From positions 310,001 through 374,000 of the forward strand of contig JANQNX010000013.1 in assembly GCA_028279365.1 (NCBI GenBank): a DNA stretch of 64,000 nucleotides, read 5' to 3'. Source of the stretch: Gammaproteobacteria bacterium. GTDB lineage: Bacteria > Pseudomonadota > Gammaproteobacteria > Eutrophobiales > Eutrophobiaceae. Below, in pieces: positions 25,367 to 53,028 of the stretch. Positions within the stretch are counted from its first letter, which is position 1. Each line of letters begins with the position of its first letter. The notes beneath the pieces were generated by a model that was not told the DNA's origin, did not search any database, and was given only the letters and a program-made list of their open reading frames with translations. The position numbers and the translations under genes are program-made.

Positions 25367-27028
25367 TTAAGAAATACGCGATTTAATATTTTCTATTTTA
25401 GTAATGTTTTTATCTGGAGTCTTACCTCCAGGAAATTCAAAGAAAAATTCACCTTGTTTGTTATCAGCTTTTCTTTTTACTTCTTTTATAGTAGACACAG
25501 CATATGATGGAGGAACTTCTGGCATCTTTCCGTTAAATAAATCATCTATTGTTGTAATCTGTATCTTAGGAAACTTTCCATGTGCAGTATTAACAAATCC
25601 TGCTGATGCAGCTTCTCTAATCATATGTTGTGTTGGTGAAGTTAAAGTTACGAATATACCGAGCTCTGCACTCTCTCTTTCAACAACACCTCTTAGATCT
25701 CTTATCATATGTGGTCCAATATTTTCTCCACCTTTGACAGAAATTATTACCATTCCAGTTCCTTTGGGCCCATTTTTAAAAAATCTTAATCCGTCAATTC
25801 CTCTGTCAGATCCTTTTTTATTACCTCGGTATGCTTGCGCTCCAATCAACCATGTTGCCCACCACTGAAATTGATATTTATCTCTTTTTGCTAAATCATG
25901 GGCAGCATTTATATCGCTTGGCCTACCAATAACTGTGAAATTATTATTATTGAATGCTTCTTTAAATCTATTCTCAATAATTTCTATTGCATGATGCGTA
26001 ACATCAATACCTAACCATTTACGATTAAGTTTTTCTGCAGCATGAATTGTGGTGCCACAACCACAAAACGGATCTAGTACAATGTCTTCAGCTTCACTTG
26101 ATACATTAATAATCCTTTCGAGTAGTGAAAGAGGCTTCTGAGTTGGATAACCTAGTGATTCATTACTTGAACCATGTAAATGTTCGATATCATCCCAATC
26201 ATCTGTTATAGGATTACCAGGCATTTCATCCAAATATCGTTTACCCTGTGGTACAGCTCCAGGTTTGGTTTGGACTACAATTCCTTTATCGTATGCTTCT
26301 TGCATTCTATCTTTTGTCCATCTCCAAACACGCGTTACTCCTAAAAACTCGTATGTTAGATTAGGCCTGTTTTTGTTGGGGTTAGTAATATCTCCAAGCC
26401 TATAACGCCTTCCATCTGGTTCAGTAAAACGATAAAACTTCTTTATATATTCAGGATCATGTTCTTTATAAATTTTATTAAATATAGCTTTACTAGTTTT
26501 TGTATATCTAAGTAGTATATCTCTGCTGTTTGGGAAGTTAACTTTTGCATGGCTTTTAGGTTGTGAACGCTTCCATGATATTTCATTACGGAAATTAGTT
26601 GGCCCGAATATGCCGTCTAATAAAATTTTTAAATAATGACTTGCTGTAGTATCGCAATGTAAATAGATAGTTCCTGTGGAACTTAAAACTCTATGGAGCT
26701 CGATTAGTCTAACGGCCATATTTGATAAATATGCCATCATCGCGTTGTCTCCTAAAAAGTTTCGAAGGCTTCTTAGTAATAAAGCGACTTCAGTACCTGA
26801 TTCCAGCACATCATCAAAAGCTCGAGCGGAAACATCACTCCAGTGCCATGTATCAACAAAAGCATCTAATTGTGCTTTTGGAGCTTCTCCTGTGGGAGTT
26901 TTGAAAAGAATGTTGTAATCAACACTAGGAGTAAAAGGAGGATCAAGATAAATAAGATCAATAGACTCATCAGGAATACTCTCCCTAAGAACCTCTAGAT
27001 TATCACCATAATAAAGTGTGTTATCCAT
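25367..27028 (-). CDS. Beta-class DNA methyltransferase fused to an Mrr-like nuclease domain
   Basis: 553 residues. The N-terminal part is an amino-methyltransferase with motif IV DPPF (29-32) before motif I DPFCGCGTT (319-327), the beta-class order, and a target-recognition region between them. The C-terminal third resembles an Mrr/PD-(D/E)xK domain: GSDRGIDGLRFF, then VIISVKGGENIGPHMIRDLRGVVERE, with D..(V)K as candidate catalytic residues. A GGGAGAAGG site precedes the ATG. It could be a single-chain restriction-modification enzyme or a methylation-guided nuclease. Flanks are strongly AT-rich, consistent with transfer. Confidence 0.82.
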   Translation of the reverse strand: MDNTLYYGDNLEVLRESIPDESIDLIYLDPPFTPSVDYNILFKTPTGEAPKAQLDAFVDTWHWSDVSARAFDDVLESGTEVALLLRSLRNFLGDNAMMAYLSNMAVRLIELHRVLSSTGTIYLHCDTTASHYLKILLDGIFGPTNFRNEISWKRSQPKSHAKVNFPNSRDILLRYTKTSKAIFNKIYKEHDPEYIKKFYRFTEPDGRRYRLGDITNPNKNRPNLTYEFLGVTRVWRWTKDRMQEAYDKGIVVQTKPGAVPQGKRYLDEMPGNPITDDWDDIEHLHGSSNESLGYPTQKPLSLLERIINVSSEAEDIVLDPFCGCGTTIHAAEKLNRKWLGIDVTHHAIEIIENRFKEAFNNNNFTVIGRPSDINAAHDLAKRDKYQFQWWATWLIGAQAYRGNKKGSDRGIDGLRFFKNGPKGTGMVIISVKGGENIGPHMIRDLRGVVERESAELGIFVTLTSPTQHMIREAASAGFVNTAHGKFPKIQITTIDDLFNGKMPEVPPSYAVSTIKEVKRKADNKQGEFFFEFPGGKTPDKNITKIENIKSRIS

Positions 27029-30385: not shown

Positions 30386-31171
30386 TTAATCAAACGGTGT
30401 TTCCTGAAGCATCCCGTCATTAATCCAGGACTGCAGATATTGAATAAAAATCTGAGGCGCTGCTTCATCACCGATATCCTTGGCCAAAAACTCGCACAGT
30501 TCACCAGCGCTATTTCCTTCATTGAGACGCTCTAAGCAATCCCACTCCTGTTGCGTTAAGTCACGAAAATAAACCATATAGTCCTTACGCCAATGAACCA
30601 AATAAGTATCAACGGCCTGTGTCGCAACGGGTTTCTCATCGTTTAAACTCTGCCACAACGCAGCCACATTAGACTCAGCCTGCGACAGCTTAAAGCAAGG
30701 AATCACTTGAAAGCACAGATCCATCCAACGCTCAGGATCAATCTGACTTAATGCATCGGAAGATAATACCGACACATCTTCACCATCATAAAGATCATGG
30801 ATCGTCCATTCAAAACGAATCAGGTCAACCAGTTCAGGTTGATTGAAGGGCGCAGTTTTTTCACAGAAATCAGGCAACTGTTCGCCCCAATAGCGCAGGC
30901 TATAGCTGGATGGCGGACACGCACTGATAAAGGCAGTAAATAATGCTAAATAATCATCATCGCCCAAGTAATGATAGGTCTCAGGATAATGCTCCTTTAG
31001 CACTTCATATAGCCTGCCCCGATAATCGCGCACATAAATATCCAGTCGTTCATGCGGTGTCATCCGCGTATCATGCTCAAGCACGCGGATCAGCGGATCG
31101 ATTTCTGTCGTCTCACTAGTGGTTTGGGTGATCTGGTTTAAGAAGGCTTGTTGAAACGCATGAAAATTCAT
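30386..31171 (-). CDS. bufC: Bufferin/oxazolin biosynthesis partner protein, DUF2063 (BufC/HvfC)
   Basis: 261 residues. The N-terminal DUF2063 domain is recognisable (FHAFQQAFLNQI, YVRDYRGRLYEVLKEHYPETYHYLGDDDYLALFTAFI, PPSSYSLRYWGEQLPDF). A helical C-terminal region with ECLERLNEG-like repeats follows. In characterised systems it delivers the precursor peptide to the MNIO enzyme. Its ATGA start overlaps the bufB stop at 31168-31171, so it is translationally coupled. It is last in bufABC. Confidence 0.88.
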   Translation of the reverse strand: MNFHAFQQAFLNQITQTTSETTEIDPLIRVLEHDTRMTPHERLDIYVRDYRGRLYEVLKEHYPETYHYLGDDDYLALFTAFISACPPSSYSLRYWGEQLPDFCEKTAPFNQPELVDLIRFEWTIHDLYDGEDVSVLSSDALSQIDPERWMDLCFQVIPCFKLSQAESNVAALWQSLNDEKPVATQAVDTYLVHWRKDYMVYFRDLTQQEWDCLERLNEGNSAGELCEFLAKDIGDEAAPQIFIQYLQSWINDGMLQETPFD

Positions 31172-32028
31172 ACTGCCCCCACCGATACTGAACGCAAGCC
31201 ATCTGTTTGCGTTTTTTGTTCATTAATGGCTTCATCATGAATAGCACGAGCCTGATTCAATTCAACCATCAGCTCATCGAATTCAGGCACATTGTCATCG
31301 CGTTCAATCATAAACGGGATCGAGCCTAACTTCTGACAGGCCACACGAAACAAATCCCATACCTCATGACAAACCGGTGCGCCATGCGTATCAAATAAAT
31401 AACTACCACAATCTTCATGGCCAGCGAGGTGAATTTGCCGGATATGACTCGCCTGCATCTTGTCCAGAAATTCCACTGGGTCACGTTTCAAGTTCATACT
31501 GGATACATACACATTATTAATATCCAGCAGTAAGCTGGCACCGCTACGTTGCATGATTTCATTGATAAAGTCCGCTTCATCCATATCAGAATCGGCAAAC
31601 TCCAGATAATTCGACAGGTTTTCAAAGGTCAACGGGCGTTTCAAGTAATCCTGCACTTGTTGTATACGATCCACGAGATGATCGACCACGGTCTTGGTCA
31701 GCGGCATCGGCAACAGCCCGTGACTATTATGCGCATTCACCGTCGCCCAACAAAGATGATCGCTTATCCATTCCGGTTCGACTTCATCAACCAGATCTTT
31801 TAACCGACTTAAATAGGTTTGATTAAGTGGATCGGTCGATCCAATAGATAGTGAAACGCCATGCAACACCACCGGGTAATCCCTGTGAATGGAATCAAGC
31901 ACCTCTCGCGGTCGACCACCTGGTTCCATCAGATTTTCTGTGATGAATTCAAACCAACCTACGTCAGGAAGGTGTTCTTTGATGTATTGATAATGGGGAT
32001 AACGAAATCCCAGACCATAAGGTTGCAT
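31168..32028 (-). CDS. bufB: MNIO-family multinuclear iron oxidase, DUF692 (BufB/HvfB)
   Basis: 286 residues of the MNIO (formerly DUF692) family. This is an iron-dependent TIM-barrel oxidase that modifies cysteines of a ribosomally made peptide, to oxazolone/thioamide or thiooxazole, to bind copper. Metal ligands are recognisable in VVLHGVSLSIGS, EWISDHLCW, TFENLSNYLEF, LLLDINNVYVSS, IRQIHLAGHED, DTHGAPVC and FMIERDDNVPE. It follows the precursor gene after a terminator-like hairpin and overlaps bufC. Confidence 0.92.
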   Translation of the reverse strand: MQPYGLGFRYPHYQYIKEHLPDVGWFEFITENLMEPGGRPREVLDSIHRDYPVVLHGVSLSIGSTDPLNQTYLSRLKDLVDEVEPEWISDHLCWATVNAHNSHGLLPMPLTKTVVDHLVDRIQQVQDYLKRPLTFENLSNYLEFADSDMDEADFINEIMQRSGASLLLDINNVYVSSMNLKRDPVEFLDKMQASHIRQIHLAGHEDCGSYLFDTHGAPVCHEVWDLFRVACQKLGSIPFMIERDDNVPEFDELMVELNQARAIHDEAINEQKTQTDGLRSVSVGAV

Positions 32029-42739: not shown

Positions 42740-45340
42740 TTATTTTTCAGTCATTAAAGTTCGTGCATTTTGGCTTTTAAGGTATGAAAAAAGACTATCA
42801 ATATCAAAACCCTTGTTTTGAAGCTGCTCAGATGCTTCCGCTCTCCAAACTAAATTACCTGGTTCTGAAAATGTTTTTCTAAGTTCTCTAACTAATGCCA
42901 TGGCATCAGCAGCCCACTGTTTAAAGTCAGAGAGTTTCCATAAACTAAGGTTATTTAAATGTGGCTCAGCACCAGATTGATATACATCAACTTGAGTTAA
43001 TAAAACTGGAATGATTTCTACTTCTTCAGGCTTACATGAAAGAACGTTTTCTTTCATCCATGCCGGGTGAGATGATGCTTGTCTCGCTTTTGTTGGATCT
43101 AATTTCGATTGCGGATTAGTATCTACATAATCTTCAAATACAATACATTTTAAACCTACTTGCCACCATGGATCAGGTGATGCGCTAGATTCTATTTTTT
43201 CTGCATCATACCCCAAATGTTCTCCTAGCAATTTATGTGCATTTTCAAATTTGCTGGGATCATTTAAACCCTCAAGTATTTCTTTTTCTCTTTTAGAATA
43301 ATTTCGATCATGCCTCATGCCAAGATTACTCAATGTTGTTTCAATCTTTTCAACTTGAAACATCACATTATGATTTACCTTACTTTCTAGTGTGCTCTCC
43401 GTATTACTCTCGCTAGCAGCTGAGAGTTGAACTAACCAAGGTATGCCATGCGCAGCTTTTTTTGCACCTAAAAAATGCTCGCGTGCTTTAACCGCAAATG
43501 AGGAATGCCCCTCTGATGCAGACATAGCAGCAGCAGAACCTGCAAGATATTCCCAAAGTGCTCGATACCCGCGCAGACCACTATCAGTAAGTATAGAAAT
43601 TACACTTTCAGCGTTTGATACAGCCTCTGAATAATCATGACTCCACATTGATAATTGATATTTGACTTCGTATTGAACAGCGTCTGATAGCTGGTCTATG
43701 CTAGGAAAAGAGTCTTTATCTACTTCGTTCCTATAATCAACTATCATCTGATTTACGGCTTCCCAATCTGCGCCATTCTCTATGAAGATTTCGAAGTTCT
43801 CTAGAAAATCAGATATTTCTTTATCCTTAGATTGCTCAACACCAAACCACAATTCCGCTTGAAGTTCTGGGTGAAAATACCTCCTTCTTCTTGGATCCGA
43901 AAGATAATCAGGTAATTCATCTCCTGTAACTACTACCGCAGAGTAATCCTCTAAGGATCTAGTGCATCGACCAATAGCCTGCAAGACCCTAGTTTGTATT
44001 CTCTCATTGTATAGAATATTTGCTCCCATTCTTGTCATAAAGAAGCGTTCTTGAGCATTTACTGCTTTTGGCAACCCCTCTATACACAATAATCGACATT
44101 CATCACCAGGAAAGTCGATCCCATCATATCTATTAGCAACGACTGCAACTGCGTTTTCGGTAGTGACAAAATTATCTTTAGATAACTCTATATCCTCGGC
44201 TGAAAATACTTTCAGTGATAAATTATCATTAATATCTTCAGCTATTTCCTCCCTCATATGATCACTTGGCACAAGCACCAAACTTCGCTTCGATCGTTTT
44301 AATAGTGAGTGTCGCAATGTCACTTCTTCTTCTTGCTCTAATGATAAGCTGGGAAATATAAAAAACCTTCTACCAACCCCCTGTGTATCCCAACCATCTG
44401 GCACTGGTAATCTTAAAATTTTTTCTCTCCCCATTAACCGTTCTAGATCTCCACCTTCTCCTAAAGTGGCAGACATATAGATTCGCTGCTTTGGTTTGTT
44501 GAAAGCCGCTAAAGACCATGTTGGAGCGATGATTGGGCGAATAAAGATCTCTGAAGTCGATAAATATATGTGACAAGATTTTAAATGATCTCGAAGCATA
44601 GACCATGGATAACGCAGATCTTTGTCTTTAGTATAAGTATCTAATACACCGACAATATCATCATGGATTTTTAAAAGTATTGGTGTAGGGACTTTATCAA
44701 CCCAATATATTTCTGAGACAGAGTCCCATTGACCAGTCATTCTAGAGTAAGTTGTAGAATCGAGATGGGGTTCAAATATTGACGACAGAACATTATGCAA
44801 AGCTGCCTGATCATGGGCATGCCTGTTTATAGATAACGTCCACATTTTTGCAACATAGTTTTCTGCCGCATGCGCATCGTCGACTATTACTATATCTGCA
44901 TCAGAGAAATACGGGTTGGTATTAAATAAACTACTATATGTAGTAACTGCTATGCGATCACCCTGATTGTAGTAAGCCTTGTCAGCTGCCGAATATTTTT
45001 TTCGTGAACCAGTAAACCCTACTACTGAAAGGCCATATTTATTTTCAGCTTGAGATACTGCCTGATTAACAAGTTGAATTGTGGGGCAAAGATAAACAAC
45101 TTTTTCTTTATGTTTTCTTCGCCTCCATTCTGCGATCAGCAAACCAACTAAAGTTTTTCCGCTTCCGGTTGGTAACTGCAAAGCGACATCTTTTACATTT
45201 TCAGCTTCTGATGCATATTTCTGCATCATTGTCTGTTGATGCGGTAAGACATCAGGAATTTTTCTTCTAGGCAATTCCCGGAATAACAAATCCGGGCTTG
45301 TAGGAGCCGATGATTTTGGTTTGCTTTTAGTAAATGCCAT
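42740..45340 (-). CDS. XPD/DinG-like superfamily 2 helicase
   Basis: 866 residues. Motif I is LPTGSGKT (56-63). Motif II is DDAH (154-157) instead of DEAH, a conservative change. IYMSATLGEGGDLERL is motif III-like, and VVANRYDGIDFPGDECRLLCIEGLP with QAIGRCTRS gives motifs V and VI of the Rad3/XPD group. The C-terminal 350 residues form an unrecognised helical region, then a segment with KCIVFEDYVDTNPQ and TKARQASSHPAWM that may be a degenerate nuclease-like fold. AT-rich, and no ribosome binding site is evident. Function may be DNA repair or phage defence. Confidence 0.8.
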   Translation of the reverse strand: MAFTKSKPKSSAPTSPDLLFRELPRRKIPDVLPHQQTMMQKYASEAENVKDVALQLPTGSGKTLVGLLIAEWRRRKHKEKVVYLCPTIQLVNQAVSQAENKYGLSVVGFTGSRKKYSAADKAYYNQGDRIAVTTYSSLFNTNPYFSDADIVIVDDAHAAENYVAKMWTLSINRHAHDQAALHNVLSSIFEPHLDSTTYSRMTGQWDSVSEIYWVDKVPTPILLKIHDDIVGVLDTYTKDKDLRYPWSMLRDHLKSCHIYLSTSEIFIRPIIAPTWSLAAFNKPKQRIYMSATLGEGGDLERLMGREKILRLPVPDGWDTQGVGRRFFIFPSLSLEQEEEVTLRHSLLKRSKRSLVLVPSDHMREEIAEDINDNLSLKVFSAEDIELSKDNFVTTENAVAVVANRYDGIDFPGDECRLLCIEGLPKAVNAQERFFMTRMGANILYNERIQTRVLQAIGRCTRSLEDYSAVVVTGDELPDYLSDPRRRRYFHPELQAELWFGVEQSKDKEISDFLENFEIFIENGADWEAVNQMIVDYRNEVDKDSFPSIDQLSDAVQYEVKYQLSMWSHDYSEAVSNAESVISILTDSGLRGYRALWEYLAGSAAAMSASEGHSSFAVKAREHFLGAKKAAHGIPWLVQLSAASESNTESTLESKVNHNVMFQVEKIETTLSNLGMRHDRNYSKREKEILEGLNDPSKFENAHKLLGEHLGYDAEKIESSASPDPWWQVGLKCIVFEDYVDTNPQSKLDPTKARQASSHPAWMKENVLSCKPEEVEIIPVLLTQVDVYQSGAEPHLNNLSLWKLSDFKQWAADAMALVRELRKTFSEPGNLVWRAEASEQLQNKGFDIDSLFSYLKSQNARTLMTEK

Positions 45341-47673: not shown

Positions 47674-47943
47674 TCAGTGCCCGGCATTTACCTTTTTCGG
47701 GACAGATTCTGTGATGCGTGAACGCCATAGATTAACGGACTGGCTATAGATATGTTGCTGGGCTGGCATCAGTTGAATATGGGGATGCTGGCATAATAAT
47801 ATGAGCGATTCGACAATATGTTCTGCCAGTTGCTGGCAAGGCCGCGTCGTGTAACGCGTCATCAGAAAAAACAGTCTTGCCTGTAATCGATCGATTGACT
47901 CTGTGGTGACTGTATCGATATGGGTTGACGATTTACTACGCAT
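47674..47943 (-). CDS. Small protein of unknown function (Fur-locus, second gene)
   Basis: 89 residues from ATG 47943, seven bases after GAGGAGAT, a strong ribosome binding site. Helical and basic: RLQARLFFLMTRYTTRPCQQLAEHIVESLILLCQHPHIQLMP, with two cysteines and several histidines. Not recognised. Its first 82 bases overlap the end of the upstream small gene in another frame. Both should be transcribed from the Fur-box promoter. Confidence 0.65.
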   Translation of the reverse strand: MRSKSSTHIDTVTTESIDRLQARLFFLMTRYTTRPCQQLAEHIVESLILLCQHPHIQLMPAQQHIYSQSVNLWRSRITESVPKKVNAGH

Positions 47944-48230
47944 GGCTTATCTCCTCTTGTTTGCGTAAGTTCTCTATTCAGTGTTTGCAAGGTGCTGGCA
48001 CAAATTCGGATGGGTGATTCGCACAGACGTCTCAGCCTGGAATGGCTAACTGAGGCCTGCGCGGCTAACAGGTACAAATCTCGACACAGCGCCTTATTTG
48101 TCTGTTTGTCTCTTGATAACAATGATTTATATTCTGTTAACTTGGAAAATAAATGCATGACTACGCTTTCTGGATTCCATCTGACAACATGAATATGCGT
48201 TTCAGTATTAATGACTTTATACTTGTCCAT
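47862..48230 (-). CDS. Small protein of unknown function (Fur-locus, first gene)
   Basis: 122 residues from ATG 48230, or about 98 from ATG 48158. The predicted transcription start (about 48236) leaves almost no leader for the first ATG, so 48158 is as likely. The residues LCRDLYLLAAQASVSHSRLRRLCESPIRICASTLQTLNRE form a cysteine-containing helical stretch. Not recognised. The 3' end overlaps the next gene by 82 bases, an unusually long overlap. It could alternatively be a leader of the second gene. Confidence 0.5.
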   Translation of the reverse strand: MDKYKVINTETHIHVVRWNPESVVMHLFSKLTEYKSLLSRDKQTNKALCRDLYLLAAQASVSHSRLRRLCESPIRICASTLQTLNRELTQTRGDKPCVVNRQPISIQSPQSQSIDYRQDCFF

Positions 48231-48234
48231 TGAT

Positions 48235-48253
48235 AATAATGATAATCATTCTC
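48235..48253. promoter_or_regulatory. Fur box
   Basis: Matches the 19-base Fur consensus at 17 positions: AATAAT-GATAAT-CATTCTC against GATAAT-GATAAT-CATTATC. It lies in the 57-base gap between divergent genes at 48230 (minus) and 48288 (plus), so iron should repress one or both. Confidence 0.85.
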
Positions 48254-48272
48254 ATTTATTAATGTCAACCGG
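48243..48272 (-). promoter_or_regulatory. Minus-strand promoter overlapping the Fur box
   Basis: TTGACA (48267-48272), an 18-base spacer and TATCAT (48243-48248) on the minus strand. The -10 lies inside the Fur box, so Fur binding would block RNA polymerase directly. Confidence 0.6.
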
Positions 48273-48287
48273 TAAATTACAAAAATA

Positions 48288-49151
48288 ATGAACGAACTTT
48301 ATCAACAACTCTGCAATGCCAATTACGTCGCCGATAAGTCGCTGTGTTTTTCTCTGCAAATGATGAATAGCGTTAACCGACCCTTGCTAATAGAAGGCGA
48401 AGCCGGTGTCGGTAAAACCGCTGTCGCGCAGGCATTGGCCAAAGCTCAGTCAACCGAATTAATACGCTTGCAGTGCTATGAAGGATTGGATGCACAGTCG
48501 GCGGTGTATGAGTGGAATTATGCCAAGCAGTTGATGTGGATAAATATTCAGCAAAAACAGCAGGACGCGGCGACACTCGACCATGTTTTTAGCCGCGAGT
48601 TTTTATTGGAGCGCCCTCTTCTCAAGGCCATCACCCAAAGCAAGGCACCGGTATTACTAATCGATGAAATCGACCGCGCCGATGAGGCATTTGAGGCTTA
48701 TTTATTAGAGTTACTATCGGAATTCCAAGTCAGCATTCCGGAATACGGCACTATTACGGCAACGACAGAGCCCAGCGTGATACTGACCTCCAACGCCAGT
48801 CGCGAACTCAGCGATGCATTACGCAGGCGTTGCCTATATCACTATCTGGACTTCCCGGATAAGGTCAGGGAAAGCGAGATCATTAATGCGTCAATGCCCG
48901 ATATCAATGAAAAACTGACCAGCCAGATCGTGCAGTTCATACAATTGCTGCGCAAACAGGACCTGGTGAAACGTCCCGGTATTGCAGAGACGCTGGATTG
49001 GTCGGCTGCATTATTAAACATGAAAGTGAACGACTTAACCGAAGCTGTCGATCAAGTGTTGCATAGTCTAGGTTGCGTACTCAAGACCAGCGACGACAGA
49101 CAACACATCAATCAGGAAAAAGTCAGTCAGTTACTGGCTGCGGTAAGATGA
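48288..49151 (+). CDS. MoxR-family AAA+ ATPase
   Basis: 287 residues. Walker A is GEAGVGKT (37-44), Walker B VLLIDEIDRAD (122-132). ILTSNASRELSDALRRRCLYHYLDFP is the sensor-1 and arginine-finger region. MoxR ATPases act as chaperones with a VWA-domain partner to mature metal-containing enzymes; the partner gene follows and overlaps by ATGA. It is the first plus-strand gene after the Fur box. Confidence 0.92.
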   Translation: MNELYQQLCNANYVADKSLCFSLQMMNSVNRPLLIEGEAGVGKTAVAQALAKAQSTELIRLQCYEGLDAQSAVYEWNYAKQLMWINIQQKQQDAATLDHVFSREFLLERPLLKAITQSKAPVLLIDEIDRADEAFEAYLLELLSEFQVSIPEYGTITATTEPSVILTSNASRELSDALRRRCLYHYLDFPDKVRESEIINASMPDINEKLTSQIVQFIQLLRKQDLVKRPGIAETLDWSAALLNMKVNDLTEAVDQVLHSLGCVLKTSDDRQHINQEKVSQLLAAVR

Positions 49152-50278
49152 TAGCCAACAATGTTAGCGATCAGTTTGTTGATTTTACCGGTTATCTAAA
49201 ACAAAACGGTTTCTCGATTGGCATTGACCAAACCCGGGACGCATTAACTCTTCTTGGTCGTCAGACCCGACCAGACCAACAATTCACTAAACAAACATTA
49301 CGCGGACTGTTCTGCAGTAACCTCAGCCAGTGGCAACAGTTTGATGATCTGTTTCAACAATTCTGGTTCTCATCCAATTTAGACAATGATGAAAAACCAC
49401 ATGAACGCAATCAAGCAATAACACGCAAGCAAAACAGTCAAAGCAGCGGTATTGCCGGGACCTCGACTGATCATTTCTCGGATATGTCGACCGACACTAG
49501 TGGTTCGGCATGCGGTGCTGGCAAACAACGCACCATTGGCAAGGCTGACTTTCGGTTTTTGAACGATACACGGGCGATGCGTGAGATTGAACGCTTAACT
49601 GAACGCCTGGCACTGTCACTGAAACAACAAAAATCCAGACGCAAGACTTATAGTAATCAAGGCGAACAAATCGACATCCGCCAAACCTTACGTCGTAATA
49701 TGAAATACGGAGGCGCGTTAATCACACCAAGATTCCGACAACAGTTAACCCGTCCATTCGAGTTGGTGATACTGCATGATGTCTCGCATTCCATGACCTG
49801 GAATAATCCCTTGCTGTTTCGGTTTGTGCGTGGTCTGGTCAGAACTCTGCCAAAGACCGAAGCATTTGTGTTTCACACGCAGCTGCATCAGGTCACAACG
49901 CTTTATCGCGAGCGCTCGGTCAAGACCATGCAACAAAAGCTGGAAGCGAAAAATAACTTATGGCTGGGCGGCACCTGCATTGGCGAATCGCTACATGAAT
50001 TCAATCAGCGCTATGCCAAAAAATATCTGAATTCGAAAACCGTATTATTGATTATCAGCGATGGTTTTGATACCGATGCGCCGGAATACCTGGCAACGCA
50101 GTTGAAAATCATGCACCGACAGTGTCGGAGACTGTTGTGGCTCAACCCGATGCTGGGTCGTGAGCATTACCAGGCCGATAGCGAAACATTTAACCAGGCC
50201 AGGCCGTATATTGACTCGCTCGTGCCAGCCAACACACTCGATTCATTACGCTCTGTTATTCAGTCAATTCGACAATAA
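49148..50278 (+). CDS. CoxE-like VWA-domain protein
   Basis: 376 residues from ATG 49148, overlapping the MoxR stop as ATGA; the frame upstream of it is a shadow. The C-terminal VWA domain has an intact MIDAS: D211-V-S-H-S215 (HDVSHSM), TCIGES and ISDGFDTD. A low-complexity linker rich in Q, S and T lies near residues 80-150, and a helical N-terminus precedes it. It works with the MoxR ATPase; the client is unknown. The 75-base gap to the response regulator leaves read-through possible. Confidence 0.9.
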   Translation: MIANNVSDQFVDFTGYLKQNGFSIGIDQTRDALTLLGRQTRPDQQFTKQTLRGLFCSNLSQWQQFDDLFQQFWFSSNLDNDEKPHERNQAITRKQNSQSSGIAGTSTDHFSDMSTDTSGSACGAGKQRTIGKADFRFLNDTRAMREIERLTERLALSLKQQKSRRKTYSNQGEQIDIRQTLRRNMKYGGALITPRFRQQLTRPFELVILHDVSHSMTWNNPLLFRFVRGLVRTLPKTEAFVFHTQLHQVTTLYRERSVKTMQQKLEAKNNLWLGGTCIGESLHEFNQRYAKKYLNSKTVLLIISDGFDTDAPEYLATQLKIMHRQCRRLLWLNPMLGREHYQADSETFNQARPYIDSLVPANTLDSLRSVIQSIRQ

Positions 50279-50359
50279 ATCAATAACACTGCGGAAAGGC
50301 TAAAGAAAACCCGCATCTGGCCGTTACTGTTCCATGAACCATAATAACTGGATGTGATC

Positions 50360-51985
50360 ATGGCCCTGTGGAATTTAAAAAATAAAAAAGTCCTGATTGT
50401 TGAAGACCACCAGGAAATGCGTGCGATTTTGCAATCGATCGTTGAACCGCTGATACCTGAAGAAATCGTTACCGCAAAAAATGGCGAAGAAGCGATAGAA
50501 AGACTTGAGGAACAACAGTTCGATATTGTCTTCTGCGATTATAATTTAGGCAACGGCAGAGACGGCCAGCAAGTGCTGGAAGAAGCAAAATACCGCGAAT
50601 TCCTGCCTTTCAACGCCATCTTTGTCATGTGTACCGCTGAAAACACCTCGGAAATGGTGATGGGCGCAATTGACTATTTACCCGATGACTACATTTCCAA
50701 GCCGTTTAATCGCACCGTCATTCACTCACGCTTGAAGAAACTGTTAGACCGAAAAAATAACCTGACAGACATCTCGTTATCGATGGCCGATAAGGATTAC
50801 CGTAAGGCCTTATCGCAATGTGATGCCTTATTAAAAACGAAACCCGCTAACCGCAGCGACTTGCTTAAAACTAAAGGTGAACTGTTGATCACGCTGGGCG
50901 AATTTGATCAAGCGGTGGATATGTATGAAGACATTATCGAGGAGCGTGATATTCCCTGGGCTTACATGGGCCTGGGCAAAACCTATTTTTTCCAGAAAGA
51001 ATACGAAGAAGCGTTACAGGTATTCTCCGGCCTGATTAAATCGAATCCGTCTAATGTTGCTGCCTATGACTGGATGGCAAAGATCCATGAAGCGATGGGA
51101 GAACTGGATAAGGCCCAGCAGATGTTGGCTATTGGTGCCAGTAAATCACCAAAGTCATTAGTTCGGCAGCGTCATCTGGCCCAGGTAGCGCATAAAAATA
51201 ACGACCTCGAAACGGCAACGAGCAGTTATCAAAAGGCGATCAATGTCGGGCAACACTCCTGTTATAAAGCGACCGATGATTACAATGCGCTGGCCAAGAC
51301 TCTGGTAGAAAACAACAAGGGTAATGAAGCGTTACAGGTTGTGGCCAAGATAGAAAAGGATTTTAAAAACACACCGCAGGCAAAAATGGCGGCCGCGCTG
51401 ACTGAAGGGATGATTCATTCCAGTTCAGGTAATGAAGAAGCGGCAGGTAAATGTTTACAACAAGCACTGGATAGCTATGCCAAAGATGCACAAGGACTCT
51501 CCTCCAGTCTGGCGCTGGAATTAACCGACCTGTGTCTTGCTACCGGCAATGAAGAGGCGGCCAATGAAGTCGCGCAAAACCTTGTGCGTAATAATCATGA
51601 TAATCAGGACATCATTGCCAAAACCAAACAGGTGTTCGCTGATGCCGGCAAGGCTGAGGCCGGTGATTCTCTGGTTGATACGACCAAGAAAGAGATCATC
51701 GATCTTAATAATAGCGGCGCCAGATTACTGAAAGAAGGCAAGCTGGAAGAATCCAGTGAATTATTCATGAAAGCGGCGCGCGGCATGCCGGATAATGTCA
51801 TCGTCAATCTGAACGCAGCCTATTCTTTATTGCAGTTGATGAAGAAGACCGGCAAGGTAAAAAAATATTCAACTCGCGTTGGTGATTATCTGGAACGGGT
51901 TCGCACGCTGGATCCCGCTAACAAGAAATACCACGATCTGATGGCCAGCTTGAAACAAGCTACGCTTGCATCGAAGGCGGCCTAG
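50360..51985 (+). CDS. Response regulator with TPR output
   Basis: 541 residues from ATG 50360; a GTG at 50354 is possible. The receiver domain has E15/D16, phosphoacceptor D60 (VFCDYNLG), T92 and K114 (YISKPFN). The rest is TPR-like repeats (MYEDIIEERDIPWAYMGLGKTYFFQKEYEEALQVF, and others), with no DNA-binding domain, so output should be by protein contact. The small histidine kinase gene follows by 14 bases. Confidence 0.9.
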   Translation: MALWNLKNKKVLIVEDHQEMRAILQSIVEPLIPEEIVTAKNGEEAIERLEEQQFDIVFCDYNLGNGRDGQQVLEEAKYREFLPFNAIFVMCTAENTSEMVMGAIDYLPDDYISKPFNRTVIHSRLKKLLDRKNNLTDISLSMADKDYRKALSQCDALLKTKPANRSDLLKTKGELLITLGEFDQAVDMYEDIIEERDIPWAYMGLGKTYFFQKEYEEALQVFSGLIKSNPSNVAAYDWMAKIHEAMGELDKAQQMLAIGASKSPKSLVRQRHLAQVAHKNNDLETATSSYQKAINVGQHSCYKATDDYNALAKTLVENNKGNEALQVVAKIEKDFKNTPQAKMAAALTEGMIHSSSGNEEAAGKCLQQALDSYAKDAQGLSSSLALELTDLCLATGNEEAANEVAQNLVRNNHDNQDIIAKTKQVFADAGKAEAGDSLVDTTKKEIIDLNNSGARLLKEGKLEESSELFMKAARGMPDNVIVNLNAAYSLLQLMKKTGKVKKYSTRVGDYLERVRTLDPANKKYHDLMASLKQATLASKAA

Positions 51986-51999
51986 AGGAATTCACTTTA

Positions 52000-52695
52000 A
52001 TGAGTCAGGCTCCCGAATTTGACTATAAGGCCTTATTAGCCAGCTCGATTCATGAGGTAAAGAACTCACTGAATATGTTGCTGAACAGTGTTGATCAGGC
52101 GATGTTGTCGGCAGCGGAGCTGGACAACCCGGTGACACAACATCTATTGCAAATTCAATACGAAGGTAAAAAGGTCAATGATGATCTGGTTGGCTTGTTA
52201 GCCATTTATCGTATCGATAATCAACAATATAGCATCAACATTGATGAATATTCGGTGTTTGATTTTCTGCAGGAAAACCTGCAACAGCATGAAATCATGA
52301 TGCAGCATCGGGCTATTACCCCTTCTCTAAACTGTGACGAAGCATTGAACTGGTATTTTGATCGCGATTTAACCAAAGGCGTGATCAGTAATGTGATTAA
52401 CAACCTGTATAAATACACCAAAGACATCATCGATATCTCTGCCACGGTCGAAGACCACTACCTGGTCATTCGGTTAAAAGACAATGGCCCCGGTTATCCT
52501 GAGGATATGATCATTACCCATGATGATGAGGGCTATCAGAAAAATATTTGCTTTGACCGCGCCAATACCGGGCTGGGGCTTTATTTCTCGGAGTTAGTCG
52601 CAGAGCTACACAAAAACAAGGGGCGCTCGGGTTTTATCACTACCACCAACGACGGTATTGACGGTGGCGGCCAGTTTTCACTGTACTTACCCTAA
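52000..52695 (+). CDS. Small soluble histidine kinase
   Basis: 231 residues, without membrane helices or sensor domain. H18 in SSIHEVKNSLNML is the likely phosphoryl site (H-box with HExxN). The catalytic domain has NxxKY (NNLYKYT), DNGPGYPED and NTGLGLYFS. It lies 14 bases downstream of the TPR response regulator, its likely partner. A GAGG site precedes the ATG. Signal input must come from other proteins. Confidence 0.88.
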   Translation: MSQAPEFDYKALLASSIHEVKNSLNMLLNSVDQAMLSAAELDNPVTQHLLQIQYEGKKVNDDLVGLLAIYRIDNQQYSINIDEYSVFDFLQENLQQHEIMMQHRAITPSLNCDEALNWYFDRDLTKGVISNVINNLYKYTKDIIDISATVEDHYLVIRLKDNGPGYPEDMIITHDDEGYQKNICFDRANTGLGLYFSELVAELHKNKGRSGFITTTNDGIDGGGQFSLYLP

Positions 52696-52788
52696 ACGTT
52701 TTTCATCACACATGGTGTGAATCACTGGATATATCGCGTATCACAGGCAATAATGATTTTTTATCTATCATCATTGCTGGAGTGATTT

Positions 52789-53028
52789 ATGTCTGAACCG
52801 ACTGTTCCCCAAAAAGCCCCTATCGCCATTGATGTCACTGCAGGTACAGAATACTGGTGGTGTTCCTGTGGCAAAAGCCGAACCCAGCCTTTTTGCGATG
52901 GTGCGCATAGCGGTTCAGAATTTACGCCTATCCCTTATAAGGCAACCGAAACCAAGACCATCTGGTTTTGTGCCTGTAAACACACATCAGATCAACCGGT
53001 ATGTGACGGCAGTCATAGCAAGCTCTAG
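52789..53028 (+). CDS. Twin-CDGSH iron-sulfur protein
   Basis: 79 residues with two CDGSH-type motifs, each with three cysteines and a histidine to hold one [2Fe-2S] cluster: C25/C27/C36/H40 (CSCGKSRTQPFCDGAH) and C61/C63/C72/H76 (CACKHTSDQPVCDGSH). Cytoplasmic. It should carry electrons or clusters. A GGAG site precedes the ATG. Confidence 0.93.
   Translation: MSEPTVPQKAPIAIDVTAGTEYWWCSCGKSRTQPFCDGAHSGSEFTPIPYKATETKTIWFCACKHTSDQPVCDGSHSKL

Follow-up and report, generated by a model that had tools for sequence, protein, structure and literature searches.

Two small genes behind a candidate Fur box, probably an iron-starvation operon, diverge from a MoxR–VWA gene pair in a gammaproteobacterial genome

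The window, i.e., the whole stretch of 64,000 nucleotides that was analyzed, contains two small overlapping genes on the minus strand, here called P1 and P2, and, diverging from them across a gap of 57 bases (48231–48287), two plus-strand genes for a MoxR-type AAA+ ATPase and a VWA protein of the CoxE type (Table 1). The latter two are joined by an ATGA overlap, as the preliminary description of this DNA had reported. A gene for a molybdopterin [4Fe-4S] oxidoreductase follows downstream of P2.

Table 1. Features at the divergent locus (positions in the window)
Feature	Position	Strand	Remarks
Molybdopterin [4Fe-4S] oxidoreductase, downstream of P2	45424..47544	-	129-base gap without terminator-like site
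P2, 89 aa	47674..47943	-	Own Shine-Dalgarno; predicted three-helix bundle; no family in Pfam, NCBIfam, PADLOC
P1, 122 aa	47862..48230	-	Homologous part about residues 1–93; remote PA4570 relative by profile/family comparisons
Fur box (candidate)	48235..48253	.	17/19 to GATAATGATAATCATTATC; equivalent boxes 5′ of the small genes in relatives
Sigma-70-like promoter TTGACA-18-TATCAT	48239..48268	-	11/12, consensus match only
MoxR-type AAA+ ATPase	48288..49151	+	Walker A GEAGVGKT and Walker B LLIDEIDR, intact
VWA protein, CoxE type	49148..50278	+	Intact MIDAS: DVSHS, GGT, SDG

The candidate Fur box in the gap reads AATAATGATAATCATTCTC and has two mismatches to the Fur 19-mer. By chance 0.07 matches with up to three mismatches are expected per window, and simulated sequence gave 0.03 matches at 16/19. 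The −10 element of the strong minus-strand promoter match (48268–48239) sits inside the box. Coordinates and mismatch count bear out what had been described for this gap. Because the ATG of P1 is only 8 bases past the −10, the P1 mRNA would be leaderless or nearly so. On the plus strand the sole usable promoter-like match in the gap (9/12) also has its −10 within the box, and the start of MoxR is 34 bases away from the box. A good match to Fur itself is encoded in the same genome of 3.14 Mb (Pfam FUR, 146.9 bits). The locus has the sequence marks of a Fur-regulated promoter, a 19-bp box lying over the promoter and kept in relatives. An Rfam scan of the locus for RNA elements gave no match.

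In relatives that carry the small genes, Fur-like boxes precede them. For a wider comparison the 300 bases upstream of each P1 or P2 match were searched for the best-scoring 19-mer by a plain consensus count with a threshold of 14/19, other windows of the same loci serving as controls. Boxes of at least 14/19 were present upstream of 14 of 30 P2 matches versus 1 of 373 control windows (p 8e-17) and upstream of 9 of 19 P1 matches versus 5 of 239 (p 1e-8); the matches are not fully independent by descent, yet the contrast is large. Leaving out the window's own family, the enrichment still had p values of 3e-16 (P2) and 1e-6 (P1). About half of the distant P2 matches are without a strong box within 300 bases. 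There is good support for putative Fur control of the two small genes, because the box is present in relatives and the enrichment in the wider families lies far above the controls.

The 82-base overlap of P1 and P2 noted before is present in the window, but it is not conserved. Four relatives (G024, G041, G043, G044) have P1 and P2 fused into a single ORF of 184–190 aa, in two others (G039, G046) the split genes share a 4-base TTGA overlap, and in G002 a short gap separates them if the second ATG is taken. We therefore regard the 82-base overlap as a local peculiarity of a variable junction in a two-domain unit; it reflects the end of P1 continuing in another frame. Since a TAA closes the P2 frame two codons 5′ of the ATG and a strong Shine-Dalgarno is present, P2 is read as being translated separately from P1, and the final ~29 codons of P1 are therefore probably under no constraint. 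A programmed frameshift joining P1 and P2 in the window is ruled out by the same TAA. Both products had been described as cysteine/histidine proteins. This does not hold for P1, whose cysteines its relatives do not share, and holds for P2 as far as His53 (conserved in 16 of 18) and less so Cys36 (12 of 18) are concerned.

The P1 of the window is unusually divergent, its identity to relatives being 21–28% versus 30–64% among most others, and P1 is degraded or broken in three further relatives (G040, G047, G030). P1 is thus the less constrained half, which suggests that P2, kept at 38–51% identity, may carry the main function, and P1 may be dispensable or decaying in the window genome. Taken together with the fusion in four relatives, the fast divergence of P1 in the window and its breakage elsewhere could also mean that P1–P2 is what is left of a once fused gene now in decay, with the frame change and the P1 divergence marking a loss of function in this genome. 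We consider this unlikely, since P1 is open over 122 codons and scores 43.7 bits against a profile built without it, P2 retains its identity and its Shine-Dalgarno, two relatives have split pairs coupled by TTGA, and the Fur box and the promoter are intact.

Neither P1 nor P2 scored above any family threshold in Pfam and NCBIfam searches. Of 53 genomes from the window's family, 11 have a P2 homolog, and most of these 11 also a P1 homolog. Profile searches of 369 gammaproteobacterial genomes gave relatives of P2 in 28 and of P1 in 19. The matches were picked by protein similarity alone, and the weakest of them may be chance. The objection that the small genes might be unconserved, which the preliminary description had raised against itself, is thereby removed. 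With the P1 of the window scoring just 14.8 bits (E 0.027) against PA4570_fam, homology to this family rests on intermediates: relatives of P1 score 25–84 bits against the NCBIfam PA4570 model (25.4 for the P1 of G002, up to 84 for wider relatives), and both P1 and its relatives stay below the curated cut-off of 100 bits (NF050178). By this sequence comparison P1 is a remote relative of Pseudomonas PA4570; of the two small genes first described as unknown, P2 is still without a match in the families searched.

Iron starvation induces PA4570 of Pseudomonas aeruginosa, which also has a canonical Fur site (PMC13277308); it did not replace RsmA (PMC4950607). P1 resembles PA4570 as a small protein behind a candidate Fur site, and its relatives match the model. 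It differs in lying under the family cut-off and in forming a pair or a fusion with P2, and an RsmW-like RNA is not known here.

Relatives of P2 adjoin genes for bacterioferritin/Bfd, DUF2325 proteins, TonB receptors, a PepSY protein and AhpC. Two further P2 paralogs, each after a Fur-like box, lie in the window's own genome on either side of a small YCxDC protein (L084:6204-7376, contig C3, ~382,200-383,380), and a similar YCxDC protein comes after P2 at L119. DUF2325 proteins adjoin P2-family genes in two unrelated genomes (L112:5400-6584 and L116:1979-3259).

P2 is predicted to be a three-helix bundle. Modelled alone it gave three helices with a pLDDT of 79, only one of five models being good; an AlphaFold model of the fused P1–P2 protein was poor (pLDDT 48). 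Fold searches with P2 returned only generic helical bundles (MIT-like, CheA Hpt, Avd; best Z 8.4, Foldseek E 0.24).

On the other side of the gap, the VWA protein reaches 182.8 bits against VWA_CoxE (PF05762), well above the gathering cut-off of 26.4. The best NCBIfam matches of the MoxR–VWA pair are MadB/MadC (NF047784, NF047783), but with 264 and 46.5 bits the scores are far below the curated cut-offs of 475 and 600 bits, and a literature search for MadB/MadC as AAA+/VWA proteins found nothing. In a PDB sequence search midasin was the only match of the MoxR profile, and the VWA profile gave no match at the thresholds used. That MoxR–VWA pairs mature metal enzymes, as had been stated, holds in known cases: CoxD/CoxE mature the Mo/Cu centre of CO dehydrogenase in Oligotropha carboxidovorans (PMC4240915), and in NorQ/NorD a MoxR AAA+ protein with a VWA partner drives metal insertion (PMC13036017). 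The pair in the window shares with CoxD/CoxE an AAA+ ATPase gene beside a VWA_CoxE gene but has other neighbours, no coxF or CO dehydrogenase gene adjoining it in the loci read; it likewise has the composition of NorQ/NorD, but nitric oxide reductase genes were not seen in its neighbourhood. On the preferred reading MoxR–VWA is a separate metal-enzyme chaperone pair of the CoxD/CoxE or NorQ/NorD kind. A defence system was considered and rejected: PADLOC gave no match for P1, P2 and the VWA protein and only weak AAA matches for MoxR.

The preliminary description had combined all four genes into one Fur-controlled cofactor system and had proposed looking for the small proteins as neighbours of MoxR–VWA in other genomes. 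Scanning public genomes brought up 23 related MoxR–VWA loci, nearly all labelled gammaproteobacterial. The small genes and the Fur box occur at just two of them, L122 (the G043 locus) and L129 (the G002 locus); the other 21 are without the small genes and have no Fur box above chance level. The idea of a Fur-controlled divergent locus holds for the small genes; for a four-part system with MoxR–VWA it finds no support. Within the family the MoxR–VWA subfamily is present in 10 of 53 genomes, P2 in 11 and both in 4, counts which take in the remnants in G030 and give no significant co-occurrence (p=0.11). Seven relatives carry the small genes without MoxR–VWA of this subfamily, and outside the family P2 was not near MoxR–VWA in the loci read. 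On the whole the small genes mostly occur without MoxR–VWA and stand elsewhere beside other iron genes, and the neighbours of MoxR–VWA vary outside the window's family. Because 21 of the 23 loci are without the small genes and the p value is 0.11, MoxR–VWA does not regularly accompany the small genes and probably does not belong to the small-protein unit.

Whenever a genome has both units, they stand side by side and diverge, and this in two different surroundings (MOLY/nrdAB in G000 and G043, the HtpX side in G002 and G030). In G030 both have decayed together: an internal deletion has turned MoxR–VWA into one ORF of 131 aa, which lies beside a P2 with a stop codon (L092:7118-7513). These two points, together with the short distance of MoxR from the box and the plus-strand promoter match that ends in it, speak for a single system of four genes in which Fur would de-repress both directions and P1/P2 would deliver or inhibit the client of MoxR–VWA during iron limitation, for example the neighbouring molybdenum/iron-sulfur enzyme. 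Against the 21 loci without small genes, the seven relatives without this MoxR–VWA, the p value and the separate placement outside the family we judge such a system to be rather improbable. Very improbable is also the bolder version that P1/P2 are an undescribed iron-starvation adaptor which in this lineage recruits MoxR–VWA, and that MoxR–VWA would then re-metallate a molybdenum/iron-sulfur enzyme or shut it down under iron shortage. A weak functional link between the two units is possible in view of the adjacency in two surroundings and the joint decay; adjacency, joint decay and proximity of the box suit either an inherited gene order or such a weak tie. With the start of MoxR just 34 bases from the box, Fur could block it, and may affect MoxR–VWA incidentally, in the window.

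In seven relatives, the window among them, the oxidoreductase gene lies close behind P2 on the same strand, and because no terminator-like site lies between the two genes in the window, read-through from the Fur promoter into it is possible. The same observations would suit an operon of P1, P2 and the oxidoreductase in which the small proteins serve the enzyme under iron limitation. We give this little credence, however: the oxidoreductase also stands without P1 and P2 (G038, G042, G045), P1 and P2 come without it in G002 and other families, and a rise in an iron-sulfur enzyme would be an odd response to iron starvation.

Our preferred reading, to which we assign a probability of roughly 0.7, is that P1–P2 is a Fur-repressed iron-starvation operon encoding a two-domain unit, and that it diverges from a separate metal-enzyme chaperone pair. 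With ample iron, Fe-Fur would cover the −10 and block transcription, and a shortage of iron would allow P1 and P2 to be made. The fused genes in relatives suggest that both act together, presumably as a single cytosolic unit of two domains. A binding or adaptor role is suggested by the three helices and the lack of a recognisable catalytic motif; most likely the unit is a small adaptor or regulator of iron-enzyme turnover or iron sparing. In this lineage MoxR–VWA diverges from the same gap as what would be a chaperone pair of its own. What the sequences show are the box, the promoter match, the family-wide enrichment, the fusion and the homology; the iron response in this organism, the expression and interaction of P1 and P2 and their adaptor role are inferred.

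The mechanism proposed is an ordinary one; what the analysis yields is an unnamed Fur-linked protein family, P2, and its tie to PA4570. Small proteins of iron starvation are often annotated merely as hypothetical. Here the association with Fur boxes, seen in many families of Gammaproteobacteria, takes in the unnamed P2 family as well as a broadened PA4570 family, and the gene fusion connects P2 and PA4570-like proteins into a testable pair. The locus also cautions against assuming that a Fur box controls both of the divergent genes between which it lies.

Some further genes of the window may be mentioned. Behind the VWA gene (50354-53028, plus strand) follow genes for receiver-TPR, histidine-kinase-like and CDGSH iron-sulfur proteins, an order kept in several relatives. 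A helicase at 42740-45340 (minus strand) matches the PADLOC candidate defence family PDC-S28 with 389 bits and is absent from the neighbourhoods of the relatives read. A pair at 30386-32028 (minus strand) resembles DUF2063 and DUF692 (MNIO) proteins. The gene at 25367-27028 (minus strand) encodes a type II/III DNA methyltransferase whose long C-terminal part may be a nuclease.
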